A stretch of DNA of 39,225 bases. It comes from Bacteroidetes bacterium GWF2_49_14. GTDB lineage: Bacteria > Bacteroidota > Bacteroidia > Bacteroidales > UBA12481. Under the pieces are notes generated by a model that was given only the letters and a program-made list of their open reading frames with translations, was not told where the DNA came from and did not search any database. Both the position numbers and the translations under genes were made by a program. This document shows positions 7,489 through 20,414 of this stretch, one piece after another. The DNA lies in contig MEOR01000026.1 of assembly GCA_001769295.1 (NCBI GenBank), positions 10,049 to 49,273 of the forward strand, given 5' to 3'. The number at the start of each line of letters is the position of its first letter. Positions within the stretch are counted from its first letter, which is position 1.

Positions 7489-7508
7489 ACCATAAAATCC
7501 TCAATCAA

Positions 7509-7556
7509 CTTATCTACTTATCAACAAATCATCAAATCATCAAATCAACCAATCGT
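7509..7556. repeat. 8-bp tandem array at the end of the oxidoreductase gene
   Basis: Six 8-bp units in a row: CTTATCTA, CTTATCAA, CAAATCAT, CAAATCAT, CAAATCAA and CCAATCGT. Two are identical and neighbours differ by a few bases. The array covers the stop codon and last codons of the beta-gamma gene (stop at 7545-7547) and most of the gap before the next gene. Confidence 0.75.
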
Positions 7557-8792
7557 TTTCCCAATCCTTCCAGCCACCCTGCTCTCCAGTGCTTCATACG
7601 GGTACAACGCGGCCTCCTTCAACAAGTAAAGGAAGCCCACGAGGGCCGCGTTGCGGCTGCCGGCAAACTCACGGAAGGCGTAGGTGACCACACTGGCTTT
7701 CGTTTCCGGGACCGGAAGGGAGGAATCGATATATACCGTTCCCTCCTTCATGGCGGCCAGGGCTCCTTTTGCATAGGCCAGCCCGTCATCCGATGTAATA
7801 ATCAGATAATCAGGAACCGGCGAGCCGGTATATAAGATCGGATCCGGTGAAATAATCACATCCGAAGCGGAAAACCCGATCCCGACGGTAACCGGGTAGC
7901 TGCCTTTTTTTGTGGCATTCAGCCCGGATGCTATTGCCGCGGCCGCGAAATATTCAGCCGCACTCTGGACCCCCTCGCCGGCGGAGCCCGCCACTTGAAT
8001 TCTTACCGTGCTTTTCAGACTGGATACATGTGTAACGGGAATATCGATTTTCCCGGTAAAAAGGGACTTGAACTTTGATTCCGACAGCAGTTCAGGCCCA
8101 GGAATGTTGCGGTCGGCATAAACCCTGATCTCCAGTCCGGCCTCCTGAACCACCTTCGATAGCTTCATTCCCGGATTCGATTTGACCCCGTAACTCGGGC
8201 AGATTTCCATTACCTCAACCAACGAAAACCCAGGTTTCGCAAAGGCTTCGGCCAGATGATCCGATAGGTCTCCGATGCCGATTACCCGGCTCACGTAGGA
8301 GGCCCCGGCAGCTGAAATGATCGCGCAGATATCCGAGGCTTTTTCACCCGCCCCATCCGGAAGGGTCGGCGTTTTGAATCCCTGCGGTGTGAACTCGCTG
8401 GGCTGCCCGCCGGTCATTCCGTAAAGCATATTATTGTGAATCACTACCGTCATGTTGAAATTCCGGTGCGCCGCATTGATCAGGTGCTGGATCCCGATGG
8501 TGACTCCCCCGTCGCCGATGAAAACGATCACTTTTTTATCCGGATTGCTCAGCCCTGCCGAAATCCCGGTGGCCAGCGCAACGGAGCGCCCATGAAGACC
8601 GTGGACGGTATGCATTTTGAACGATTTGTCGATGATTCCGTGGCATCCGATATCGGTTACCAAAATGACATCCAGAAGCGGAATTCCGAGTTTTTGCAGC
8701 GCCTTGTCGGTGTTTTCCGATATGGTGGTATGGCCGCACCCCTTGCAGAATGGGAGGCCCTCTTCCTTAAGATATACTCTTTCCATGGTCAA
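7545..8792 (-). CDS. 2-oxoacid:ferredoxin oxidoreductase, fused beta-gamma subunit
   Basis: A 415-aa cytoplasmic subunit. Residues about 10-255 form the thiamine-pyrophosphate beta domain: GDGG at 93-96 with Asn120-Asn121 is the TPP/Mg motif, and Cys16, Cys19 (CKGCGH), Cys50 and Cys198 are placed like the 4Fe-4S ligands of KorB/PorB beta subunits. Residues about 262-410 form the gamma domain, opening RIQVAGSAGEGVQSAAE. With the alpha subunit it should oxidatively decarboxylate a 2-oxoacid to an acyl-CoA, reducing ferredoxin. No ferredoxin-like delta subunit is encoded here. The start overlaps the alpha gene by 26 bp; the internal ATG for Met3 (8786) is an alternative. The divergent glutaryl-CoA dehydrogenase suggests 2-oxoadipate or 2-oxoglutarate as substrate, an inference. 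Confidence 0.88.
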   Translation of the reverse strand: MTMERVYLKEEGLPFCKGCGHTTISENTDKALQKLGIPLLDVILVTDIGCHGIIDKSFKMHTVHGLHGRSVALATGISAGLSNPDKKVIVFIGDGGVTIGIQHLINAAHRNFNMTVVIHNNMLYGMTGGQPSEFTPQGFKTPTLPDGAGEKASDICAIISAAGASYVSRVIGIGDLSDHLAEAFAKPGFSLVEVMEICPSYGVKSNPGMKLSKVVQEAGLEIRVYADRNIPGPELLSESKFKSLFTGKIDIPVTHVSSLKSTVRIQVAGSAGEGVQSAAEYFAAAAIASGLNATKKGSYPVTVGIGFSASDVIISPDPILYTGSPVPDYLIITSDDGLAYAKGALAAMKEGTVYIDSSLPVPETKASVVTYAFREFAGSRNAALVGFLYLLKEAALYPYEALESRVAGRIGKTIG

Positions 8793-10052: not shown

Positions 10053-11234
10053 ATGTCTGCCACCATACAATTTACCGCACCCGACCATTTTCTCGTTGAT
10101 GATCTCTTCTCGGAAGAACAGCGAATGATACGCGGGGCATTCCGTGATTGGGTTAACCGTTTTGTTAAGCCCGATATAGAGGATCACTTCGAAAAATGTA
10201 CGTTTCCGATCCATCTGGTTAAGGAGCTGGGAGCGATGGGCGGTTTCGGTCCCTTCATTCCGGAAAAATATGGTGGCTCCGGCCTGGATTACATGACCTA
10301 CGGGATCATCATGACCGAACTTGAGCGGGGCGATACGGGAATCCGATCGCTGGCCTCGGTTCAGACCTCCCTGGTCATGTACCCGATCTACGCCTATGGC
10401 ACCGAGGAGCAGAAGATGAAATACCTGCCCAGGCTGGCATCCGGCGACCTTATTGGGTGCTTCGGCCTTACAGAGCCCAATCACGGCTCTGATCCGGGCG
10501 GCATGATCACCCGCTTCACCGATAAGGGAGATCATTACCTCCTCAACGGAGCAAAAATGTGGATCACCAACTCCACCATCGCCGATGTGGCCGTCGTTTG
10601 GGCGAAGGATGAAAACAACGTGGTCCGCGGCCTGATCGTTGAAAAAGGGATGGCCGGATTCACCGCCCCGGAGACCCATGGAAAATGGTCCTTGCGTGCG
10701 TCGGTAACCGGCGAGCTGGTTTTTGACAACGTAAGGGTACCCAAAGAAAATATTCTCCCCGGCGTGCAAGGTCTGAAAGGCCCGTTAAGCTGCCTCAGTT
10801 CAGCCCGTTACGGAATCGCATGGGGTGTGATCGGCGCAGCCATGGACTGTTATGACGCTGCTGTCCGGTACTCTCTTGAGCGGCACCAGTTCGGCAAACC
10901 AATTGCTTCCTTCCAGCTTCAGCAGAAAAAACTGGCCGAAGCCCTCACCGAGATCACCAAGGCCCAGCTCCTGGCCTGGCGGCTCGGTCAGCTGCGTGAT
11001 CAGGGCAAGGTAACCCCCGCACAAATCTCCATGGCCAAGCGCAACAACGTTGAAATGGCCCTTACGGTCGCCCGTGACCTTCGCCAGGTTCTCGGTGCCA
11101 TGGGCATCACCCGCGACTATCCCATGATGCGTCACATGATGAACCTCGAATCGGTGATCACCTACGAAGGCACACACGATGTGCACCTGTTGATTACGGG
11201 GCAGGAGATAACGGGGATAGCGGCGTATAAATAA
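10053..11234 (+). CDS. gcdH: Glutaryl-CoA dehydrogenase (acyl-CoA dehydrogenase family)
   Basis: A 393-aa FAD enzyme that oxidises and decarboxylates glutaryl-CoA to crotonyl-CoA in lysine and tryptophan degradation, passing electrons to an electron-transfer flavoprotein. Conserved family segments are visible throughout: IPEKYGGSGL, GCFGLTEPNHGSDPGGM and MWITNS for FAD and substrate binding, SLRAS-TGEL, and ARYGIAWG. The catalytic base is Glu372 in TYEGTHD, the position used by glutaryl-CoA rather than isovaleryl-CoA dehydrogenases. Length is typical. It is divergent from the 2-oxoacid oxidoreductase operon (158 bp between starts), which could supply glutaryl-CoA from 2-oxoadipate. The stop codon runs directly into a 7-bp tandem array. 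Confidence 0.9.
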   Translation: MSATIQFTAPDHFLVDDLFSEEQRMIRGAFRDWVNRFVKPDIEDHFEKCTFPIHLVKELGAMGGFGPFIPEKYGGSGLDYMTYGIIMTELERGDTGIRSLASVQTSLVMYPIYAYGTEEQKMKYLPRLASGDLIGCFGLTEPNHGSDPGGMITRFTDKGDHYLLNGAKMWITNSTIADVAVVWAKDENNVVRGLIVEKGMAGFTAPETHGKWSLRASVTGELVFDNVRVPKENILPGVQGLKGPLSCLSSARYGIAWGVIGAAMDCYDAAVRYSLERHQFGKPIASFQLQQKKLAEALTEITKAQLLAWRLGQLRDQGKVTPAQISMAKRNNVEMALTVARDLRQVLGAMGITRDYPMMRHMMNLESVITYEGTHDVHLLITGQEITGIAAYK

Positions 11235-11374
11235 AGAAGAAAGACGAAAGAACAAAGATGAAAGAAAGAGCTAAGATTTTTAAGATTGCAAGACCCTCAA
11301 GACCGGGTCCGGAATCTTAACATCTTGAAATCTTTCTTCTTTCTTTCATCTTTGTTCTTTCGTCTTTTATCTTT
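11233..11374. repeat. Head-to-head 7-bp tandem arrays after gcdH
   Basis: Five units of AAAGnnn (AAAGAAG, AAAGACG, AAAGAAC, AAAGATG, AAAGAAA; 11233-11267) begin inside the gcdH stop codon. Downstream, 11340-11374 holds five units ending in CTTT (TTTCTTT, CATCTTT, GTTCTTT, CGTCTTT, TATCTTT). Segments 11240-11269 and 11338-11367 are perfect 30-bp inverted repeats. The 68-bp interior also contains paired AAGATT and AATCTT stretches, so one long hairpin could form and end gcdH transcription. Confidence 0.88.
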
Positions 11375-12795: not shown

Positions 12796-13344
12796 ATGAA
12801 AACAACCCTATCACTTATCCTTGGCCTGATGTTCTTTAGCGGTGTTATGGCCCAAACCACCCCGCCTTCGGCTCAATCGGTTCTTGATGAAGCTCTGGCC
12901 GTGGCAAAAGTTGAAAACAAGAATGTTTGCATCATGTTCCACGCCTCCTGGTGCGGTTGGTGCAAACGAATGGACTCGATCATGAATATGCCTGTAAACA
13001 AGCCATACTTCGAGGCCAACTGGGTAATACGGCATCTGGTTGTGGCTGAGAATAAGCCGGATCTAAAGAAAAATGAGAATCCGGGGGGCATGGAATTGCT
13101 GGTCAAATATGCAACCGTTTATCAGGGTATCCCCTACTGGCTGGTTTTCAACCCGAAAGGACAACTTCTATTCGACTCAAAAATGCCCGCCAAGGACAAA
13201 ACAGGCATGGACATCCGCACCAATACCGGCTGCCCGGCTGCTGCCGACGAAGTGGAGTATTTCGAATATGTGATGAAGCATACCACGAAGCTCACCGCCG
13301 AAGAGATTTCGAAGATCGGGGCTACTTTCCTGCTGAAGAGGTGA
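12796..13344 (+). CDS. Exported thioredoxin-fold protein
   Basis: A 182-aa protein with a signal peptide (cleavage about residue 19, VMA-QT) and a thioredoxin-like core. The redox motif is Cys53-Gly-Trp-Cys56 within FHASWCGWCKRM, and the cis-proline loop is probably GIPYWLVF. It is expected to work in the periplasm as a disulfide reductase or isomerase. The WCGWC form is common in the Thioredoxin_7/DUF255-like group, whose partners are mostly unknown. The 104 bp upstream holds a large stem-loop, so it may be transcribed with or separately from the preceding outer-membrane gene. It converges on the second PQQ-propeller gene. Confidence 0.88.
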   Translation: MKTTLSLILGLMFFSGVMAQTTPPSAQSVLDEALAVAKVENKNVCIMFHASWCGWCKRMDSIMNMPVNKPYFEANWVIRHLVVAENKPDLKKNENPGGMELLVKYATVYQGIPYWLVFNPKGQLLFDSKMPAKDKTGMDIRTNTGCPAAADEVEYFEYVMKHTTKLTAEEISKIGATFLLKR

Positions 13345-13362
13345 CTTGCAGGGGCTCTCTGA

Positions 13363-13437
13363 TGTCATCCTGACGGAAGTCAGGATCTCCCGCCAGTTGC
13401 TCCGAGGCTGGGGATCCTGACTTTCGTCAGGATGACA
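13363..13437. repeat. Inverted repeat with paired hairpins at a convergent junction
   Basis: Arms 13363-13390 and 13410-13437 are 28 bp each and match with two differences. Each arm is also a hairpin by itself: ATCCTGAC, a GGAA (left) or GAAA (right) loop, GTCAGGAT. It belongs to the same repeat family as 19181-19262. Similar GTCATyCC...GGrAT palindromes are known as interspersed repeats in many bacteria. It lies between convergent genes and could terminate both. Confidence 0.85.
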
Positions 13438-13447
13438 GTTCTGGCCC

Positions 13448-13503
13448 AACCGGCAACCGGAAAATGGCAACCGGCAACCGTTCTTAACCGGCAACCGGCA
13501 ACG
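13448..13503. repeat. 7-bp tandem array (AACCGGC type)
   Basis: Units AACCGGC, AACCGGA, AAATGGC, AACCGGC, AACCGTT, a 3-bp interruption CTT, then AACCGGC, AACCGGC and AACG. It starts 10 bp after the inverted repeat and ends just before the stop codon of the PQQ-propeller gene at 13505. Confidence 0.85.
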
Positions 13504-13504
13504 T

Positions 13505-14758
13505 TCATCTCCCAACCTTATAAAGTGTCGTCTTCGTCCTCAAATACAGGGCCCCGTCAACAATTGCTGGGGAGGCCATGAACCCGTCGGGAAGGCGGTT
13601 TTCACCTACTTTGACGAAGGAATCGCCCGGCCGGAAGACCGTGGTGAGCCCGGATTCGTCAAACGTATAAACCAGGCCACCCACATAAACCGGCGAGGCC
13701 GAGGTTTCCAGTCCCACACGCTCGCTCCAGATCTCGGCACCCGTATCGGGATTGAGGCATTTGGCCTGCCCTGCTGTATTTATCATGTAAAACCTGCCGT
13801 TAATAAACAGGCCTGAGGAGCGTGCGGAAAGATTCCGTTTGTTCATCCATCTGAGCCCCTCGGCGGTGCGATCCCCGGCTCCGCCAGGTTTAATCGCCAC
13901 CACACTTGAATGGCTGAATCCGGTATTGAAGAAAACCAGTCCGTTGCCGGTTACCGGCATGGAAGATCCTGAGAATCCCTCATATCTGACCCGCCAGATT
14001 TCCCGGCCGGTCAATGGCTCATAGGCCATCACCGCATGCGGCCCGGGACTGATCAGCTGGTCCTTACCATCCACCTGAACAATGACCGGGGTGCTGAAGG
14101 CCTTCCGCGCATCTGGGGTGAACCCGCTCAAATCCAGTCCCCGCGGGGTGTTCCAAATTGTTTTTCCGGTCCTTTTGTCCAGTGCGGTCACATATTGCAG
14201 ATCCTGCCCGTCAAAAGTCAGGATCAAGAGATCCTTGTATATGAAGGGAGAGGATCCGGGACCTACCCCATGGTCGCACTGCAGGTCCTTTCTTTTCCAG
14301 ATAACCTTTCCTGATCTGGTATCCAGGCAGGCGGTCCCATACGCTCCGAAATGAACATAAATCCGCCCGGGCTCCAACACCGGTGAAGGAGAGGCATAAC
14401 TGTTCAGTCCATGCTGCTCCTGCGGAAACTCAATTTCAAAAACCTCAATATTATGAACGATTTTCCCGTCTTTTTCTTTAATCCCGATAACCTGCACCTT
14501 CTTCCCATCCGGTACCGACGTGGTCAGCCAAATCATTCCGTCCATCACCACAGGCGAGGACCATCCGCGTCCCGGGACCAGAGTCTTCCATACAATATTC
14601 CTGGTTTCGCTCCACACCACCGGAATATCCCCAGCTGTGCTGGTGCCGTTCCCGGACGGGCCACGGTATCCCGGCCAGCTGTTTGCAGGATATTGCGCCA
14701 TTGTTGTTGCAGCAAACAAATACAGCGTGGGAATTGTTAGTATTTTTGGCAGGTGCAT
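13505..14758 (-). CDS. Exported PQQ-type beta-propeller protein
   Basis: A 417-aa protein with a signal peptide (cleavage near TMA-QY, residue 21) and the family opening WPGYRGPSGNGTS. Blade motifs recur, for example DTRSGKVIWKRKD, DKRTGKTIWNTPRG, EPLTGREIWRVRYE and NPDTGAEIWSERVG, the WD-like pattern of PQQ/BamB-like propellers. It has no EF-hand insert, unlike the related protein encoded at 6028-7488; the two are diverged paralogs. No enzymatic residues are recognisable, so a binding or scaffold role in the periplasm is as likely as a dehydrogenase role. The gene is divergent from the Tricorn protease gene with 72 bp between starts. Confidence 0.88.
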   Translation of the reverse strand: MHLPKILTIPTLYLFAATTMAQYPANSWPGYRGPSGNGTSTAGDIPVVWSETRNIVWKTLVPGRGWSSPVVMDGMIWLTTSVPDGKKVQVIGIKEKDGKIVHNIEVFEIEFPQEQHGLNSYASPSPVLEPGRIYVHFGAYGTACLDTRSGKVIWKRKDLQCDHGVGPGSSPFIYKDLLILTFDGQDLQYVTALDKRTGKTIWNTPRGLDLSGFTPDARKAFSTPVIVQVDGKDQLISPGPHAVMAYEPLTGREIWRVRYEGFSGSSMPVTGNGLVFFNTGFSHSSVVAIKPGGAGDRTAEGLRWMNKRNLSARSSGLFINGRFYMINTAGQAKCLNPDTGAEIWSERVGLETSASPVYVGGLVYTFDESGLTTVFRPGDSFVKVGENRLPDGFMASPAIVDGALYLRTKTTLYKVGR

Positions 14759-14830: not shown

Positions 14831-17800
14831 ATGAAACTTCGTACATTTCTCCTTTCCTTCTGCCTTGTGCCTTTTGCCTTGTGCCTTCTGCCTTATCAAG
14901 TCTCCGCCCAGGTTCCGGCAAAACTCATGAAATACATGGACGTTTCTGATAATCAGATCACCTTTGTTTACGGGGGAGATATCTGGGTAATGCCAAAATC
15001 AGGCGGAACCGCCTCCCAGATTACACATTCGCCGGGAGAAGAATCCTGGACGCGCTTCTCCCCCGACGGGAAATTCATCGCCTATACGGCATCCTACAAT
15101 GGGAATGCGGATGTATATGTAATCCCGGCCACAGGCGGACTGCCCGTCAGGGTAACCTACCATTCGTTCGGGGATCAGCTTATCGACTGGCATCCCGACG
15201 GCAAGCGGCTTCTCTTCTCCTCGGCACGTGAAAGCGGACGGGGCGCCTTGGCGAATCTCTACCTCGTTGATGCTGCCGGAGGATTTCCGGAGAAACTAAA
15301 GGTTCCCTATGCAGTCCTGGCCAGCTTCTCGCCCGATGGCAGCCAGCTGGCATATATCACGCGGATAACCGAGAACTATCCCTTTAAAAGGTACCGTGGA
15401 GGAATGGCTTCCGATATTATCGTGTACGACCTGGCAAAAAACAGCGCGGTCAACATTACCAATAACAATGGTATTGACGGAAAACCGACCTGGGTGGGAG
15501 ACAAAATCTATTTTCTCTCCGACCAGGATGAAAACATGCGACTGAATATCTGGGTTTATGATACCAAAACCAGGCAGACCAGTCAGATAACCAGAATCAA
15601 GGATTTTGATATCAACCACATGTCGGCTGGAAAAACCGATATCGTTTTCGACGCCGGCGGGACTCTTTTCCTGATGAACCTGGCCTCGCAGAAATATGAA
15701 CCGGTGGATGTGAACGTAGTTTCCGATCTGTCAGTAGAAATGCCGAGATCCTTAAATGTGGGTCAGCAAATTAATGGTGCCACTGTTGCACCGGGGGCAA
15801 AAAGGATTGTTTTCCAGGCGCGTGGTGAACTGTTCAATGTACCGGCGACGGAAGGATATGTGATCAACATGACCCGTTCCAGCGGGGCTTTCGACCGCGA
15901 TCCGGCTTGGTCGCCGGATGGAAAAACCATTGCATTCTGGAGTGACCGCGACGGAGAATGGGAAATCTGGCTGCAACCCGCAACAGACAACTCACAACCA
16001 AAAAAACTGACCAAACGGGGCAAGGGCTACGGATATTCCCTGAACTGGTCACCCGACAGCAAGAACATTGCCTTTATCGACGAAACCAGCACCCTGTTTG
16101 TGATCGATGCGGAAAACGGAAAAACCCGGACGGTCAGTCATACCCTCTATGCTGTCGGTCACGGATCTTCTCAGGGCTACACTCTTGCCTGGTCCCCCGA
16201 TTCCAAATGGCTTGGATTTACCAAAAGCGTGGAAAACACGAACACAGCGGTTTTTCTGTACAACATGGAAACATCTGATTGCAAACAGGTTACCAGCGGT
16301 TTCTTCAATGACGGAGACCCCGTTTTCAGCACCGATGGGAAATACCTGTTCTATCTGACCAGCCGCAGCTTTTCAGCTCTCTATTCTGATATGGGCGACG
16401 GAACCTGGGTGTATCCGAACTCGACACAGATCGCGGCAATCAGCCTGGTAAAAGACGCCCCTTCGCTCCTTTCACCAAAAAACGACGAGCAGGAGGAGAA
16501 AAAGGCTGTGAAGGACACGGCCAAAGTGGTTGTAAAAGTTGATTTTGAAAATATTGAATCCCGATTGGTGATCCTTCCGCCCAAGGCCGGAAACATCAGG
16601 GGAGTCATGGCCTTTGAAGGCAAGATCGTCTATTTCCGTTCACCCAACTCCGGTTCCGGTGAGCGCTCCTCCTCTCTTGTGGTGTATGATTTCACCACCC
16701 GTGAAGAGAAACCGGTGATGGCCGATGTGAGCATGGCTATAATTTCAGCAGACCGGAAATCACTCCTGGTGAGCAGTCAGGGTAAATATGGGATCATCCA
16801 GCCGGCAGCCGCCCAGAAGATTGACAAGGCGGTGCCAACCGGCGACCTCGTAATGCAGCTTGTACCCAAGGAAGAGTGGCGCCAGATTTTCACCGATACC
16901 TGGCGCAGGCACCGCGATTTCTTTTATGATCCCAACATGCAGGGGGTTGACTGGAACGAGATGCGCTCCCGGTACGGAGCCTTGATTGATTACGCCCGTA
17001 CCCGGTGGGATATCAATACCATCCAGGGGCAACTGGTTTCCGAACTCGCAGCCGGCCATACCTACAGCTCTGGTGGCGACCTTGAAAGCGTCAGGCCGGT
17101 TCAGACCGGGTTCCTGGGGATCGACTGGGAACTTTCGAACGGGCTTTACCGGATTAAGAGAATCGTGACTCCTGCAGCCTGGGATACTGATACCCGCTCT
17201 CCATTCGACCTGCCGGCCGCCAAGGCAGGAGTCGGGGACTACATCCTGGCTGTAAATAATATCAGTCTGGATCCGAAAATGGATCCCTATGCTCCATTCG
17301 AGGGACTGGCCGGAAAAACGGTTTCCCTTACCGTCAGCAAGTCCGGCAAAACTGAAGAGAGCGAAAAGATTATCATCAAATGCCTTACCCCGGGTGAAGA
17401 ATCCAACCTCCGGTACCTGGAGTGGATTGAGAACAACCGCAGGATGGTCGATAAGTTGTCCGGCGGAAAACTCGGATACATCTATATGTCGAATACCTCG
17501 ACACAGGGCCAGTTGGAACTGGTTAAGATGTATTATGGGCAGCTCGACAAAGATGGATTCATTATTGATGAGCGGTTCAACGGCGGCGGCGCTTTGGCCG
17601 ACCGCTTCCTTGAGCTTCTTACCCGGCCGGTGGTTTACAACATTCACTGGAGGATGGGCAAGGCCACAACCCAGCCGATCAAATCCAATAACGGTCCCAA
17701 AGGCATGCTGATCAACGGTTGGGCCGGGTCAGGCGGCGATGGGCTGCCATGGGCATTCCAGGAGCTGAAAGCAGGACCGATCGTGGGTGAGCGCACTCTC

Positions 17801-18091
17801 GGCATTCTCGTGGGGCCCGCCACCGGGCATTCACTGATCGACGGTGGGAGTATCACGGTTCCCGACGGAAGGCTTTATGACAATGACGGGCACTGGTTCT
17901 GGGAAGGGGTAGGTGTTTCTCCTGATTTCCCGGTTTGGGACGATCCGAACATTCTCGTTCAGGGCCGTGATCCCCAGATTGAAAAAGTGGTGGAAGAGGT
18001 AATGAAGCTCGTGAAAACCGCTCCCGCAAAGATGACACCCTCTCCGAAGCTGGAGGACCGCACCGCTAAGGGATTAGGGAAGAAGAAGTAA
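14831..18091 (+). CDS. Tricorn-type protease (exported, S41 family)
   Basis: A 1086-aa secreted peptidase. After a signal peptide (cleavage near VSA-QV, residue 27) come two beta-propeller regions with TolB-like PD40 repeats (about residues 35-690; motifs such as SPDGKFIAY and SPDGKTIAFWSDRDGEWEIW), a helical C1 region, a PDZ domain (about 758-850) and the catalytic C2 domain. Catalytic residues fit archaeal Tricorn: His743 in AGHTYSSGGD, nucleophile Ser967 in GWAGSGGDG and Glu1025 in FWEGVGVSPD, each within three positions of the Thermoplasma numbering. Tricorn enzymes trim oligopeptides. Bacteroidota homologues with signal peptides are common and probably act in the periplasm. The signal-peptide core is encoded by a 7-bp tandem repeat. 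Confidence 0.93.
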   Translation: MKLRTFLLSFCLVPFALCLLPYQVSAQVPAKLMKYMDVSDNQITFVYGGDIWVMPKSGGTASQITHSPGEESWTRFSPDGKFIAYTASYNGNADVYVIPATGGLPVRVTYHSFGDQLIDWHPDGKRLLFSSARESGRGALANLYLVDAAGGFPEKLKVPYAVLASFSPDGSQLAYITRITENYPFKRYRGGMASDIIVYDLAKNSAVNITNNNGIDGKPTWVGDKIYFLSDQDENMRLNIWVYDTKTRQTSQITRIKDFDINHMSAGKTDIVFDAGGTLFLMNLASQKYEPVDVNVVSDLSVEMPRSLNVGQQINGATVAPGAKRIVFQARGELFNVPATEGYVINMTRSSGAFDRDPAWSPDGKTIAFWSDRDGEWEIWLQPATDNSQPKKLTKRGKGYGYSLNWSPDSKNIAFIDETSTLFVIDAENGKTRTVSHTLYAVGHGSSQGYTLAWSPDSKWLGFTKSVENTNTAVFLYNMETSDCKQVTSGFFNDGDPVFSTDGKYLFYLTSRSFSALYSDMGDGTWVYPNSTQIAAISLVKDAPSLLSPKNDEQEEKKAVKDTAKVVVKVDFENIESRLVILPPKAGNIRGVMAFEGKIVYFRSPNSGSGERSSSLVVYDFTTREEKPVMADVSMAIISADRKSLLVSSQGKYGIIQPAAAQKIDKAVPTGDLVMQLVPKEEWRQIFTDTWRRHRDFFYDPNMQGVDWNEMRSRYGALIDYARTRWDINTIQGQLVSELAAGHTYSSGGDLESVRPVQTGFLGIDWELSNGLYRIKRIVTPAAWDTDTRSPFDLPAAKAGVGDYILAVNNISLDPKMDPYAPFEGLAGKTVSLTVSKSGKTEESEKIIIKCLTPGEESNLRYLEWIENNRRMVDKLSGGKLGYIYMSNTSTQGQLELVKMYYGQLDKDGFIIDERFNGGGALADRFLELLTRPVVYNIHWRMGKATTQPIKSNNGPKGMLINGWAGSGGDGLPWAFQELKAGPIVGERTLGILVGPATGHSLIDGGSITVPDGRLYDNDGHWFWEGVGVSPDFPVWDDPNILVQGRDPQIEKVVEEVMKLVKTAPAKMTPSPKLEDRTAKGLGKKK
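14856..14894 (+). repeat. 7-bp tandem array inside the Tricorn protease signal peptide
   Basis: Five full units CCTTCTG, CCTTGTG, CCTTTTG, CCTTGTG and CCTTCTG, then CCTT. Because three units equal seven codons, the protein repeats as SFCLVPF then ALCLLPY in the hydrophobic core. Loss or gain of one unit would shift the frame of the protease. Confidence 0.92.
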
Positions 18092-18264: not shown

Positions 18265-19131
18265 ATGAAAAGCATCATTCTTACCCTTATGGCCACCTTG
18301 CTCATGGTCGGTTGCGGACGTGAGATTATTCCTGATGAGGAACTGTCCAATAAGGACAGGATGAACAAACTGCAAATAAGCGATCCGTTGGTTTGGAATT
18401 CTCTGGTTGACCAAAGCATCAAAATTGACACCTCGGGGCTAGGATTGAAAGGCGCCAATGGCACCATGAAGATCTTTGAATATCCTGGTGACGGGAAGTA
18501 TTACTACACGATTTTTGAAGATCTGTATCCTTCCCAGGGGGATTATGATTTCAATGACCTGATGCTTGAGTCACGCCTTTTCCTTGAGCCCAGAAAAAAT
18601 GAAATTTCCGGGAGGCTCAATGCCACCATGTTCCACCGTGGGGGGACACTGAAGACACAAATAAGCCTGGCTTTCTATTCAAACAACGGGAAAAAGGGCT
18701 ATGAGATTATCCCCAATGAACAGATCCGGATTAACGATGTCGACCTGACTGGCCAAGAGCCTTACGCAATGGATGTTCCCAAGGCTGGAGCTAATTTTGA
18801 CATAAATTTCATCCTTTCGAAGGGCGAGGTACCCATCGACAATATTTGGGTTTCCTGGTTTATTCAAGTGGAGTCAGGTGGTGAAGTCCGGGAAATACAC
18901 ACTGCAGGTTTCCCTCTTTACAAGGTTAATAAATTTGAGATCCCGCAGCGTGACTATCTGACCCAGAATAATCTTCCATGGGGATTGGAAATCATGGCTG
19001 AGAGGTTTTACGTTCCATTGGAGAAGACCTTGTTCCTTGATGCCTTCCCGGAATTCAAGGTTTGGGCTGAATCAGGTGGTGATGAAAACACTGAGTGGTT
19101 CAAAAATCCCGATTTGAAGTACATAAATTAG
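18265..19131 (+). CDS. LruC-domain lipoprotein
   Basis: A 288-aa protein with a lipoprotein signal: hydrophobic stretch then LMVGC with acylated Cys17. Residues 84-100 read FEDLYPSQGDYDFNDLM, the signature of the LruC domain, whose aspartates resemble calcium sites; the C-terminal part also fits the domain (NLPWGLEI near 245 and a final acidic, aromatic segment). LruC was named from a Leptospira lipoprotein; the domain is frequent in Bacteroidota surface lipoproteins and its function is unknown. At 288 aa it is almost only the domain plus anchor. It is likely transcribed alone and converges on the efflux operon. Confidence 0.85.
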   Translation: MKSIILTLMATLLMVGCGREIIPDEELSNKDRMNKLQISDPLVWNSLVDQSIKIDTSGLGLKGANGTMKIFEYPGDGKYYYTIFEDLYPSQGDYDFNDLMLESRLFLEPRKNEISGRLNATMFHRGGTLKTQISLAFYSNNGKKGYEIIPNEQIRINDVDLTGQEPYAMDVPKAGANFDINFILSKGEVPIDNIWVSWFIQVESGGEVREIHTAGFPLYKVNKFEIPQRDYLTQNNLPWGLEIMAERFYVPLEKTLFLDAFPEFKVWAESGGDENTEWFKNPDLKYIN

Positions 19132-19161
19132 GCCTGATCTACAAGAAATAAACCCGATTAA

Positions 19162-19262
19162 CGCTGTCATTCCGGCGACTCTCACGCTGTCATTCCGGCG
19201 AAAGCCGGAATCCCCCTGCAATTGTCGGGGGATTCCGGCTTTCGCCGGAATGACAGCGTGAG
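19162..19262. repeat. Perfect 36-bp inverted repeat with a partial extra copy
   Basis: Arms 19181-19216 and 19227-19262 are perfectly complementary around a 10-nt loop (TGCAATTGTC). Each arm is also a hairpin: ATTCCGGC, GAAA loop, GCCGGAAT. A truncated direct copy of the arm start, CGCTGTCATTCCGGCGA, precedes it at 19162-19178. It is the same family as 13363-13437, with three paired stem substitutions between the copies. It sits between convergent genes (LruC lipoprotein and efflux permease). Confidence 0.92.
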
Positions 19263-19273
19263 CGTATCGGCGG

Positions 19274-19294
19274 TCTGCCGTCTGCAGTCTGCGA
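19274..19294. repeat. Short 7-bp tandem array (TCTGCnn)
   Basis: Three units TCTGCCG, TCTGCAG and TCTGCGA, 11 bp after the inverted repeat and just before the stop codon of the permease gene. The placement mirrors the array at 13448-13503. Confidence 0.65.
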
Positions 19295-19301
19295 TCCTCC
19301 C

Positions 19302-20414
19302 TCACCCCCTCTTCCTGTAGCTCCACACGGCCCACCCGTTGAAGAAAACGGCGAATCCACTGAGTGCAATGAACTGGGGTACCAGCTCATGGAAGGTGCT
19401 GCCTTTGAGGTAAACCAGCCTCATAACCTGCATCATATACTTGAGCGGACTGATGCGGCTTACCGATTGGGCCCAGTCGGGCATGGAGGTAACCGGTGTA
19501 TAGAGTCCGCTCAGGAAAATGAAGGTGATGATAACGAAGAACATCATGAACATGGCCTGCTGGATGGTGTTTGCATAGTTGGAGATCACCAGACCGAAGC
19601 CTGAGAAAGCCAGCACAAACACCGAGGCAAACAGGTAAATCGTGGAGAAATGGCCTGTCGGTACCAGTCCGTAAAAAAGCCAGGCCACAAAGAAACAAAC
19701 GGAGAGAACGACAAATCCGATGATCCAGAAAGGGATGAGCTTTGACAGGATAAACTGGAATTTACTTACCGGGGTCACATTCATCTGCTCCATGGTTCCC
19801 TTCTCCTTCTCACCCACGATGTTCAGGGCCGGAAGAAAGCCGCACACCATCGCAAGCATCATGACCATCAAGGCGGGAATCATATAAATCGTATAGCCCA
19901 TGTGCGGATTGTAACGAAACGTTGGAATGATCCGGGCCGCTGCGATCACTTCGCCACCCGCGCCCTGGATCCATTCACTCCGCACCTCCGCACTGAAGTC
20001 GGTCATGATGCTGGCCAGATAGGCGCTGCCCAGGCCGCCCTTCATGCCGTTCACCGTATTGGCTGAGATCATCACACCTGTTTTGCGGTCGTTAACCAGT
20101 TCCGGTTCAAAACGCGGCGGGATCTCCAGCACAATATCGGCCTTGTCAAGTTCAACACTTTCGATAGCCTGCCTGTAATCCGCAGCCACAGTGGTGATCC
20201 GGAAATATCCGGAGGAGGCGATCTTCTGGATCAGTCGCCCGGAATAGGGGCTGTGACTGTTATCCACCACGCTCAGGCTGATCTTTTTAATGGAGAAGTT
20301 TACCGCCAGCGGGAAAATAGCCAGGGCAACAAAGGGAAATACAATGACGAATTTCGGCAGGAACCGGCTCCGGAAAAATTGTTTAAATTCCTTTTCGAGC
20401 AGATATTTCAACAT
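19302..20414 (-). CDS. ABC-2 type efflux permease (YbhR-like)
   Basis: A 370-aa inner-membrane subunit: one N-terminal helix (about residues 22-40), a large extracytoplasmic domain (about 45-175), then five helices in the C-terminal half. The segment GEKEKGTMEQMNVTPVSKFQF after the second helix is the ABC-2 coupling motif that contacts the ATPases. Last gene of the efflux operon, starting 2 bp after the stop of its paralog. In YbhFSR-type systems such pairs of permeases form one heterodimeric channel that hands substrates to the HlyD adaptor. Transported compound unknown. Confidence 0.9.
   Translation of the reverse strand: MLKYLLEKEFKQFFRSRFLPKFVIVFPFVALAIFPLAVNFSIKKISLSVVDNSHSPYSGRLIQKIASSGYFRITTVAADYRQAIESVELDKADIVLEIPPRFEPELVNDRKTGVMISANTVNGMKGGLGSAYLASIMTDFSAEVRSEWIQGAGGEVIAAARIIPTFRYNPHMGYTIYMIPALMVMMLAMVCGFLPALNIVGEKEKGTMEQMNVTPVSKFQFILSKLIPFWIIGFVVLSVCFFVAWLFYGLVPTGHFSTIYLFASVFVLAFSGFGLVISNYANTIQQAMFMMFFVIITFIFLSGLYTPVTSMPDWAQSVSRISPLKYMMQVMRLVYLKGSTFHELVPQFIALSGFAVFFNGWAVWSYRKRG

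Follow-up and report, generated by a model that had tools for sequence, protein, structure and literature searches.

Polar arrays of 7- and 8-bp units beside REP-like hairpins at the gene boundaries of a Bacteroidetes genome

In the draft genome of Bacteroidetes bacterium GWF2_49_14, REP-like hairpins between genes are associated with short tandem arrays of 7- or 8-bp units, which lie close to the edges of open reading frames (ORFs) and turn the same strand toward them. The association is established, as are the unit families, the 7/8 periodicity, the polarity and the position close to ORF edges. The near-uniform direction of the repeats beside hairpins suggests that one process shapes the gene boundaries. 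The reading preferred here, with a probability of roughly 0.38, is a gene-boundary module in which arrays born by slippage are kept in one orientation, giving C-rich leaders and G-rich trailers, while the hairpin insulates transcript ends.

The stretch of DNA analysed, referred to as the window, comprises 39,225 nucleotides (G000:C26:10049-49273) of a 3.52-Mb assembly in 163 contigs, and its closest protein matches come from Bacteroidetes MAGs. Two junctions, at 13345-13504 and 19132-19301, lie between convergent gene pairs about 160–170 bp apart. Junction 1 is bordered on the left by the gene of a thioredoxin-like protein (12796..13344, + strand) and on the right by that of a PQQ/BamB-like beta-propeller protein (13505..14758, − strand). 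Its REP-like hairpin (13363..13437) consists of two 24-nt arms, TGTCATCCTGACGGAAGTCAGGAT, in inverted orientation, and each arm forms a small stem-loop of its own (4-nt loop); the 32-nt inverted repeat gives a calculated RNA fold of -58.1 kcal/mol (z -9.9). The 9-nt linker GTTCTGGCC (13438..13446, + strand) connects the hairpin to a 7-bp array of the AACCGGC family (13447..13502), the C-form of which, meaning the C-richer strand of the array unit, is on the + strand. The array, listed by TRF as CAACCGG with a score of 57, faces the adjoining stop codon of the leftward gene at 13505 and ends 2 nt short of it, and its period-7 identity of 0.53 was reached by 0 of 3000 shuffles.

Junction 2 lies between the gene of a DUF4842 protein (18265..19131, + strand) and that of an ABC-2 transporter permease (19302..20414, − strand). 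The hairpin at 19178..19265 belongs to the same family, with arms of 44 nt that are 93% complementary and a partial third arm at 19165-19188; the palindrome folds at about -67 kcal/mol (z about -12). It is followed by 2.9 units of a TCTGCnn array (19273..19292, + strand; TRF score 33, period-7 P=0.0013), the C-form of which points to the stop codon of the permease gene 9 nt away. The order given in the preliminary description, a REP-like hairpin and then a 7-bp array next to the stop codon of the leftward gene, is thus found at both junctions, although the array has 7.6 copies at junction 1 and only about three units at junction 2. The spacing, described as shared, is approximately so, 9 nt as against 7 or 17 nt, because the gap at junction 2 varies with where the hairpin is taken to end.

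Further arrays are present elsewhere in the window. An inverted pair of AAAGAAG / CTTCTTT heptad arrays at 11233..11374, composed of a G-form array (11233-11266) and a C-form array (11342-11374), is a related structure that has no REP hairpin. The ATCAACAA octad array at 7504..7554 (C-form, + strand) extends into the stop of the leftward gene at 7545-8792. A sigma-70 promoter was found at neither junction, and Rfam gave no match within the window. The reading of the hairpin as an intrinsic terminator is not supported, since neither junction contains a stem-loop followed by a T run; where the T run of such a terminator would stand, the 3' side of the hairpin carries GTTCTGGC or a similar sequence.

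The pattern of the hairpin arm, TGTCATYCYGRCGRAAGYCRGRAT, matches the genome at 64+64 sites, while a reversed control matches nowhere. The arms are dispersed, many of them in +/- pairs, and resemble REP/BIME elements in being short intergenic stem-loops in inverted pairs with over 100 arm copies. Since a single arm folds into a stem-loop closed by four loop nucleotides, the palindrome has the build of paired REPs, to which, unlike in the REP/BIME elements associated with RAYT, polar arrays are added. Y1_Tnp genes are present across the relatives, and the genome has one PF01797 (Y1_Tnp, RAYT-like) gene, within about 1.5 kb of which there is no hairpin arm. A RAYT origin of the hairpin is therefore not supported. 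At its locus, L158 (G000:C30:47693-51031), the gene stands between copies of a different palindrome, CCCGGCCTGAAGGCCGGG with TTACTGATGTC after it; CCCGGCCTGAAGGCCGGG is probably the cognate REP of the Y1_Tnp gene.

Coupling between hairpins and arrays was scored in the surroundings of every listed hairpin copy (about 0.7 Mb in total), in outward flanks of 70 nt, with ORFs defined by a simple longest-ORF rule in a draft assembly whose contig breaks often fall in repeats. As this sample was picked around hairpins, it overstates the density of arrays, which in unselected sequence of the same genome is 16 per 248 kb. In this test, which the preliminary description had proposed, arrays of period 7 or 8 stand beside the hairpin copies, at 81 of 189 hairpin ends versus 0/189 shuffled flanks; the background is 19% at gene 3' ends, and by position 11% in hairpin-free intergenic sequence versus 0.8% in coding sequence. 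Intergenic regions with a hairpin contain an array in 47 of 67 cases, compared with 36 of 146 for those without (odds ratio 7.2, P=5e-10), and the odds ratio is 8.9 for regions of 150-400 bp. Of the 34 hairpin ends with the GTTCTGGC linker, 28 have an array next to them, spaced at 9-13 nt in 27/28 and drawn from the AACYRGY (23) and CCYYATR (5) families. Many hairpin ends are without an array, chiefly those of the CCCCGC class with ACGCT/AGTGC linkers, where one is present at only 9/58. Hairpins in general are rejected as array anchors, as only nine arrays adjoin the 174 non-REP hairpins in the same DNA, and these nine show no polarity (4 C, 5 G). While strong in the source genome, the coupling of arrays to REP-like hairpins is weak in its congener G004, where an array follows only about 1 in 10 hairpin ends. 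The composite element proposed in the preliminary description is thus supported as an association of hairpin and array, but the array is not an obligatory part of one element, because arrays occur without a hairpin and many hairpin ends have no array.

At L052, L042, L056, L071 and other loci, AACCAGT/AACCGGC units extend from a second palindrome, GTACCGGCCGGCCTYAGYGCCGGCC, up to a start codon. A related stem-loop, GTCATCCCCGCGAAAGCGGGGACCGCG, forms clusters at L035 (34-159), L046 (3936-4073) and L060 (10461-10584), with AGTGC/ACGCT spacers and mostly without arrays.

Periods 7 and 8 dominate among the arrays. TRF gave 188 rows of period 7 and 82 of period 8, other short periods having at most 40; in ungapped counts with a score of at least 12, the numbers are 154 and 64, and each other period from 4 to 13 has at most 24. 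The 7-bp families are AACYRGY, GGTCRTC, CCYYATR, GCCTTGN, CTTTCKN, GCGTCAC, TCTGCNN and AAATCRT, those of 8 bp are ATCAWCAM, CAGTCTYT and CCCCTATG, and an AACYGAY family occurs in G004. The latter was defined after G004 had first been scored with the earlier families, a choice of which the family-free test given below is independent. A typical array has 4-5 units, or about 28-40 nt, and in the C-form of all 12 families C exceeds G. The diversity of array sequences at similar spacing, as described for the two junctions, is borne out across the unit families. The further proposal that only the period is conserved holds for the variation in sequence, while the period is 7 or 8 and not always 7, the units come from about 12 recurring families and are not free, and the strand polarity is conserved too, the C-rich strand pointing outward in 60/60 arrays.

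These 60 arrays are those adjacent to hairpins, and they represent seven families. Where two arrays lie within 220 bp of each other, the G-form comes first and the C-form second in 38 pairs, versus the reverse order in two, and a hairpin stands at the centre of 16 of the 38. Both members belong to the same family in 19/38 of these G-to-C pairs, compared with 6.2 expected by shuffling, and the pairs of different families include a 7-bp unit opposite an 8-bp unit, so that the two sides are partly matched, yet often different. More than half of the arrays (53%, versus 15% expected) lie no more than 10 nt from an ORF edge. The C-form is turned toward the ORF at starts as it is at stops, in 90/97 of the selected set. 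Outside the data from which the families were defined, the same polarity was observed in 8/8 arrays of unselected sequence of the source genome, 27/28 of G004, 3/3 of G005, 3/3 of G007, 1/1 of G001 and 1/1 of G006. Of the gaps between convergent genes 51% contain arrays, of the tandem gaps 36% and of the divergent ones 19%.

A family-free test, which uses only the sign of C minus G and no unit families, gives the C-richer strand toward the ORF at 91:14 in the source genome (P=5e-15) and 31:1 in a congener (P=1.5e-8), the series continuing with 13:2 and with 6:0 for other genera. Arrays of other periods, few of which could be scored, show no significant bias (8:5 and 3:1). The polarity is not a matter of background composition, since GC skew is absent after stops in flanks that have no array. 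An artefact of ORF calling is ruled out by GGTTGCC, a unit with no stop codon and with a TAA in its complement, which follows stops at 20:1, as well as by the 38:2 order of the pairs, which uses no ORFs. The polarity rule is independent of gene direction, unit sequence and family, and the C/G skew is the sole common denominator.

The inversion of arrays about the hairpin also accords with a palindromic mobile (MITE-like) composite, whose heptad arrays would be its terminal inverted repeats, with intergenic insertion, intrinsic polarity and chimeric pairs arising by recombination at the hairpin. Such an element would account for the outward C-form in all 60 arrays, for the threefold excess of same-family pairs and for the fixed spacing of the GTTCTGGC linker class, and it is in line with the different array content at an orthologous gene end between congeners and with the array-free relatives of array loci noted in one report (PMC4679880). 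However, most arrays are solo or lack a hairpin, half of the inverted pairs differ in family, even combining 7 with 8 bp, no transposase is linked to them, the only Y1_Tnp gene being flanked by a different palindrome, and the 53% of arrays within 10 nt of an ORF edge would be unexpected for random insertion. A mobile composite is thus considered unlikely.

The fact that the two sides of a junction carry families independent of each other agrees as well with a strand-directional synthesis, in which G-rich units would be added to 3' ends, by telomere-like break healing or hairpin-primed copying, and the sides then joined with the G-form away from both ORFs. The 7-8 bp G/C-skewed units, with the G-strand running 5'->3' away from both ORFs, conform to this scheme. 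Growth from old proximal to fresh distal units is, however, the opposite of what is observed, as units are slightly more uniform near the ORF (0.95 for the first unit on the ORF side, 0.90 for the last on the centre side), and among enzymes other than reverse transcriptases no candidate was identified. This origin is regarded as improbable. The palindromic mobile composite and directional synthesis both remain candidates beside the slippage model.

An excess of 7-bp repeats in bacteria has been noted since 2007, with no accepted function, and was attributed to slippage at 7-nt units (Mrazek 2007, as cited in PMC4692102 and PMC4679880). The G-rich heptamers GGGAATC of Xanthomonas and GGGGA(T/C)T of Nostoc form intergenic arrays of mostly about four copies. 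Their G-rich strand is the coding one when they follow a stop, within 50 nt, and the non-coding one when they precede a start; many are in convergent inverted pairs, they are rare between divergent genes, and their function is unknown (Rehm et al. 2015, PMC4692102). The arrays described here are similar in their 7-nt intergenic units, polarity and convergent inverted pairs, and with these properties they belong to the polar intergenic heptamer kind, the definition of which is extended by period 8. While Xanthomonas and Nostoc have a single G-quadruplex-capable unit per genome, about 12 families are present here, most of them without GGG runs, periods 7 and 8 are mixed within pairs, and a REP-like hairpin is often central. 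The main families (AACCGGC, ATCATCAC, GACGGAT and AAGGCAC) have no G-quadruplex-capable GGG run on either strand, which places the arrays outside Rehm's G-quadruplex subset.

Direct TAACTGA repeats of a Beggiatoaceae genome are situated just upstream of starts in one orientation (147 facing starts, 12 facing stops), and they are also found in a few Bacteroidetes (MacGregor 2015, PMC4679880). The AACYGAY arrays of G004 have the same unit and match them in place and orientation. That study treats one unit and, in the parts covered, describes no coupling to a hairpin, as opposed to the many families with a hairpin found here. In the part of the literature that was searched, no report combines a large set of unit families and two periods with a hairpin; polarity has already been published for single heptamers, and the multi-family, two-period, hairpin-joined form is new.

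The likeness to TAACTGA favours a further explanation, in which the arrays would be bound by a Csp/S1-like protein that recognises RNA or DNA with a footprint of 7 nt and acts in a post-transcriptional network, as proposed for those repeats; one Csp per heptamer is discussed in the same report (PMC4679880). A sequence-specific protein is unlikely, because a single genome has about 12 families of unrelated units, with two periods, that all follow one rule, and arrays after stops would be antisense to such a role. As the rule is independent of gene direction, unit sequence and family, sequence-specific binding and G-quadruplexes are both poor general explanations. Because about a dozen families and two periods share a fixed polarity within one genome, the conserved properties (period, C/G polarity, proximity to ORFs) can be told apart from the variable one (sequence), and the family-free statistic is simple enough to be applied to any annotated genome. 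It is possible, if doubtful, that bacterial intergenic 7-/8-bp arrays of any sequence follow one polarity law, with the C-rich strand turned to the nearest ORF at starts as well as stops, produced by a single undescribed process in Bacteroidota, Gammaproteobacteria and Cyanobacteria with palindromes, among them the REP-like hairpin, at its centre.

In the preferred slippage-retention model, the module would consist of a BIME/REP-like palindrome and slippage-prone 7-/8-bp arrays between the palindrome and the neighbouring ORF. Its full form would be [G-form array]-[hairpin]-[C-form array], with one side, or the hairpin, often absent. Arrays would be born and enlarged by replication slippage, spread among loci, and be lost unless their orientation leaves acceptable mRNA ends, which may be C-rich, G-poor RNA entering the ORF in leaders and G-rich RNA leaving it in trailers, ahead of a stabilising hairpin. 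The hairpin would mark and insulate transcript ends, mostly between convergent genes, and the arrays would occupy the room that is tolerated between hairpin and ORF. To explain one polarity rule, the model has to invoke two separate kinds of selection, on leaders and on trailers. Calculated RNA folding of the two array strands differs modestly, and in some families not at all, so that a simple leader structure does not explain all families. Unit families common to hundreds of loci need a spreading mechanism beyond slippage alone, and the excess of same-family inverted pairs (19/38 vs 6.2) hints at inverted duplication or unit-wise insertion over independent slippage on each side.

The C-rich RNA entering the ORF could instead load Rho and halt antisense or read-through transcription, making the composite a bidirectional Rho-dependent boundary. 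Rho favours C>G RNA with regularly spaced C, a rut site being 70-80 nt of such RNA with YC dimers 9-13 nt apart (PMC6407284, PMC9160355), and the C-forms of the 12 families, every one with more C than G, fit this preference. Arrays are also most frequent between convergent genes, as such a boundary would require. Most arrays, at 4-5 units (28-40 nt), are nevertheless shorter than a rut site, their unit spacing is 7-8 nt, not 9-13 nt, and the polarity upstream of starts would give the gene a rut site within its leader. Cyanobacteria are not known to have Rho. The same polarity in Nostoc, a cyanobacterium (PMC4692102), also opposes a Rho-dependent boundary, which is regarded as improbable.

At the orthologous junction in the congeners, no array is shared at the 3' end of the ortholog, and the gap itself is too low in identity to be aligned. 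Downstream of the ortholog of the PQQ gene, L162, L163 and L164 each have a different inverted or repeated structure, for example GTTGCCAACTT...AAGTTGGCAAC; as each congener has its own structure at this 3' end, the intergenic repeats are subject to fast turnover. Genome G006, the source of the closest protein match, L078, is without such hairpins. The GATGATKT octad pattern occurs in 0/246 other genomes of the phylum sample, and in the order sample in G004 and one other genus. In a Saccharicrinis MAG, L100 (17210-17390) contains a GATGATGT octad array right behind a TAA and then an inverted TAATCTAA octad array, a layout that this different genus shares with the source genome.

At L058 (4452-5616), convergent palindromic octads are based on GCAAAGGC/GCCTTTGC (CTCGCAAAGCCGCAAAGGCGCAAAG...). 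In the window, a CCTTSTG heptad array at 14856-14894 lies within the start of a Tricorn-protease ORF (14831-18091), where it codes for the hydrophobic, signal-peptide-like stretch FLLSFCLVPFALCLLP, so that here a tandem array apparently serves as coding sequence.
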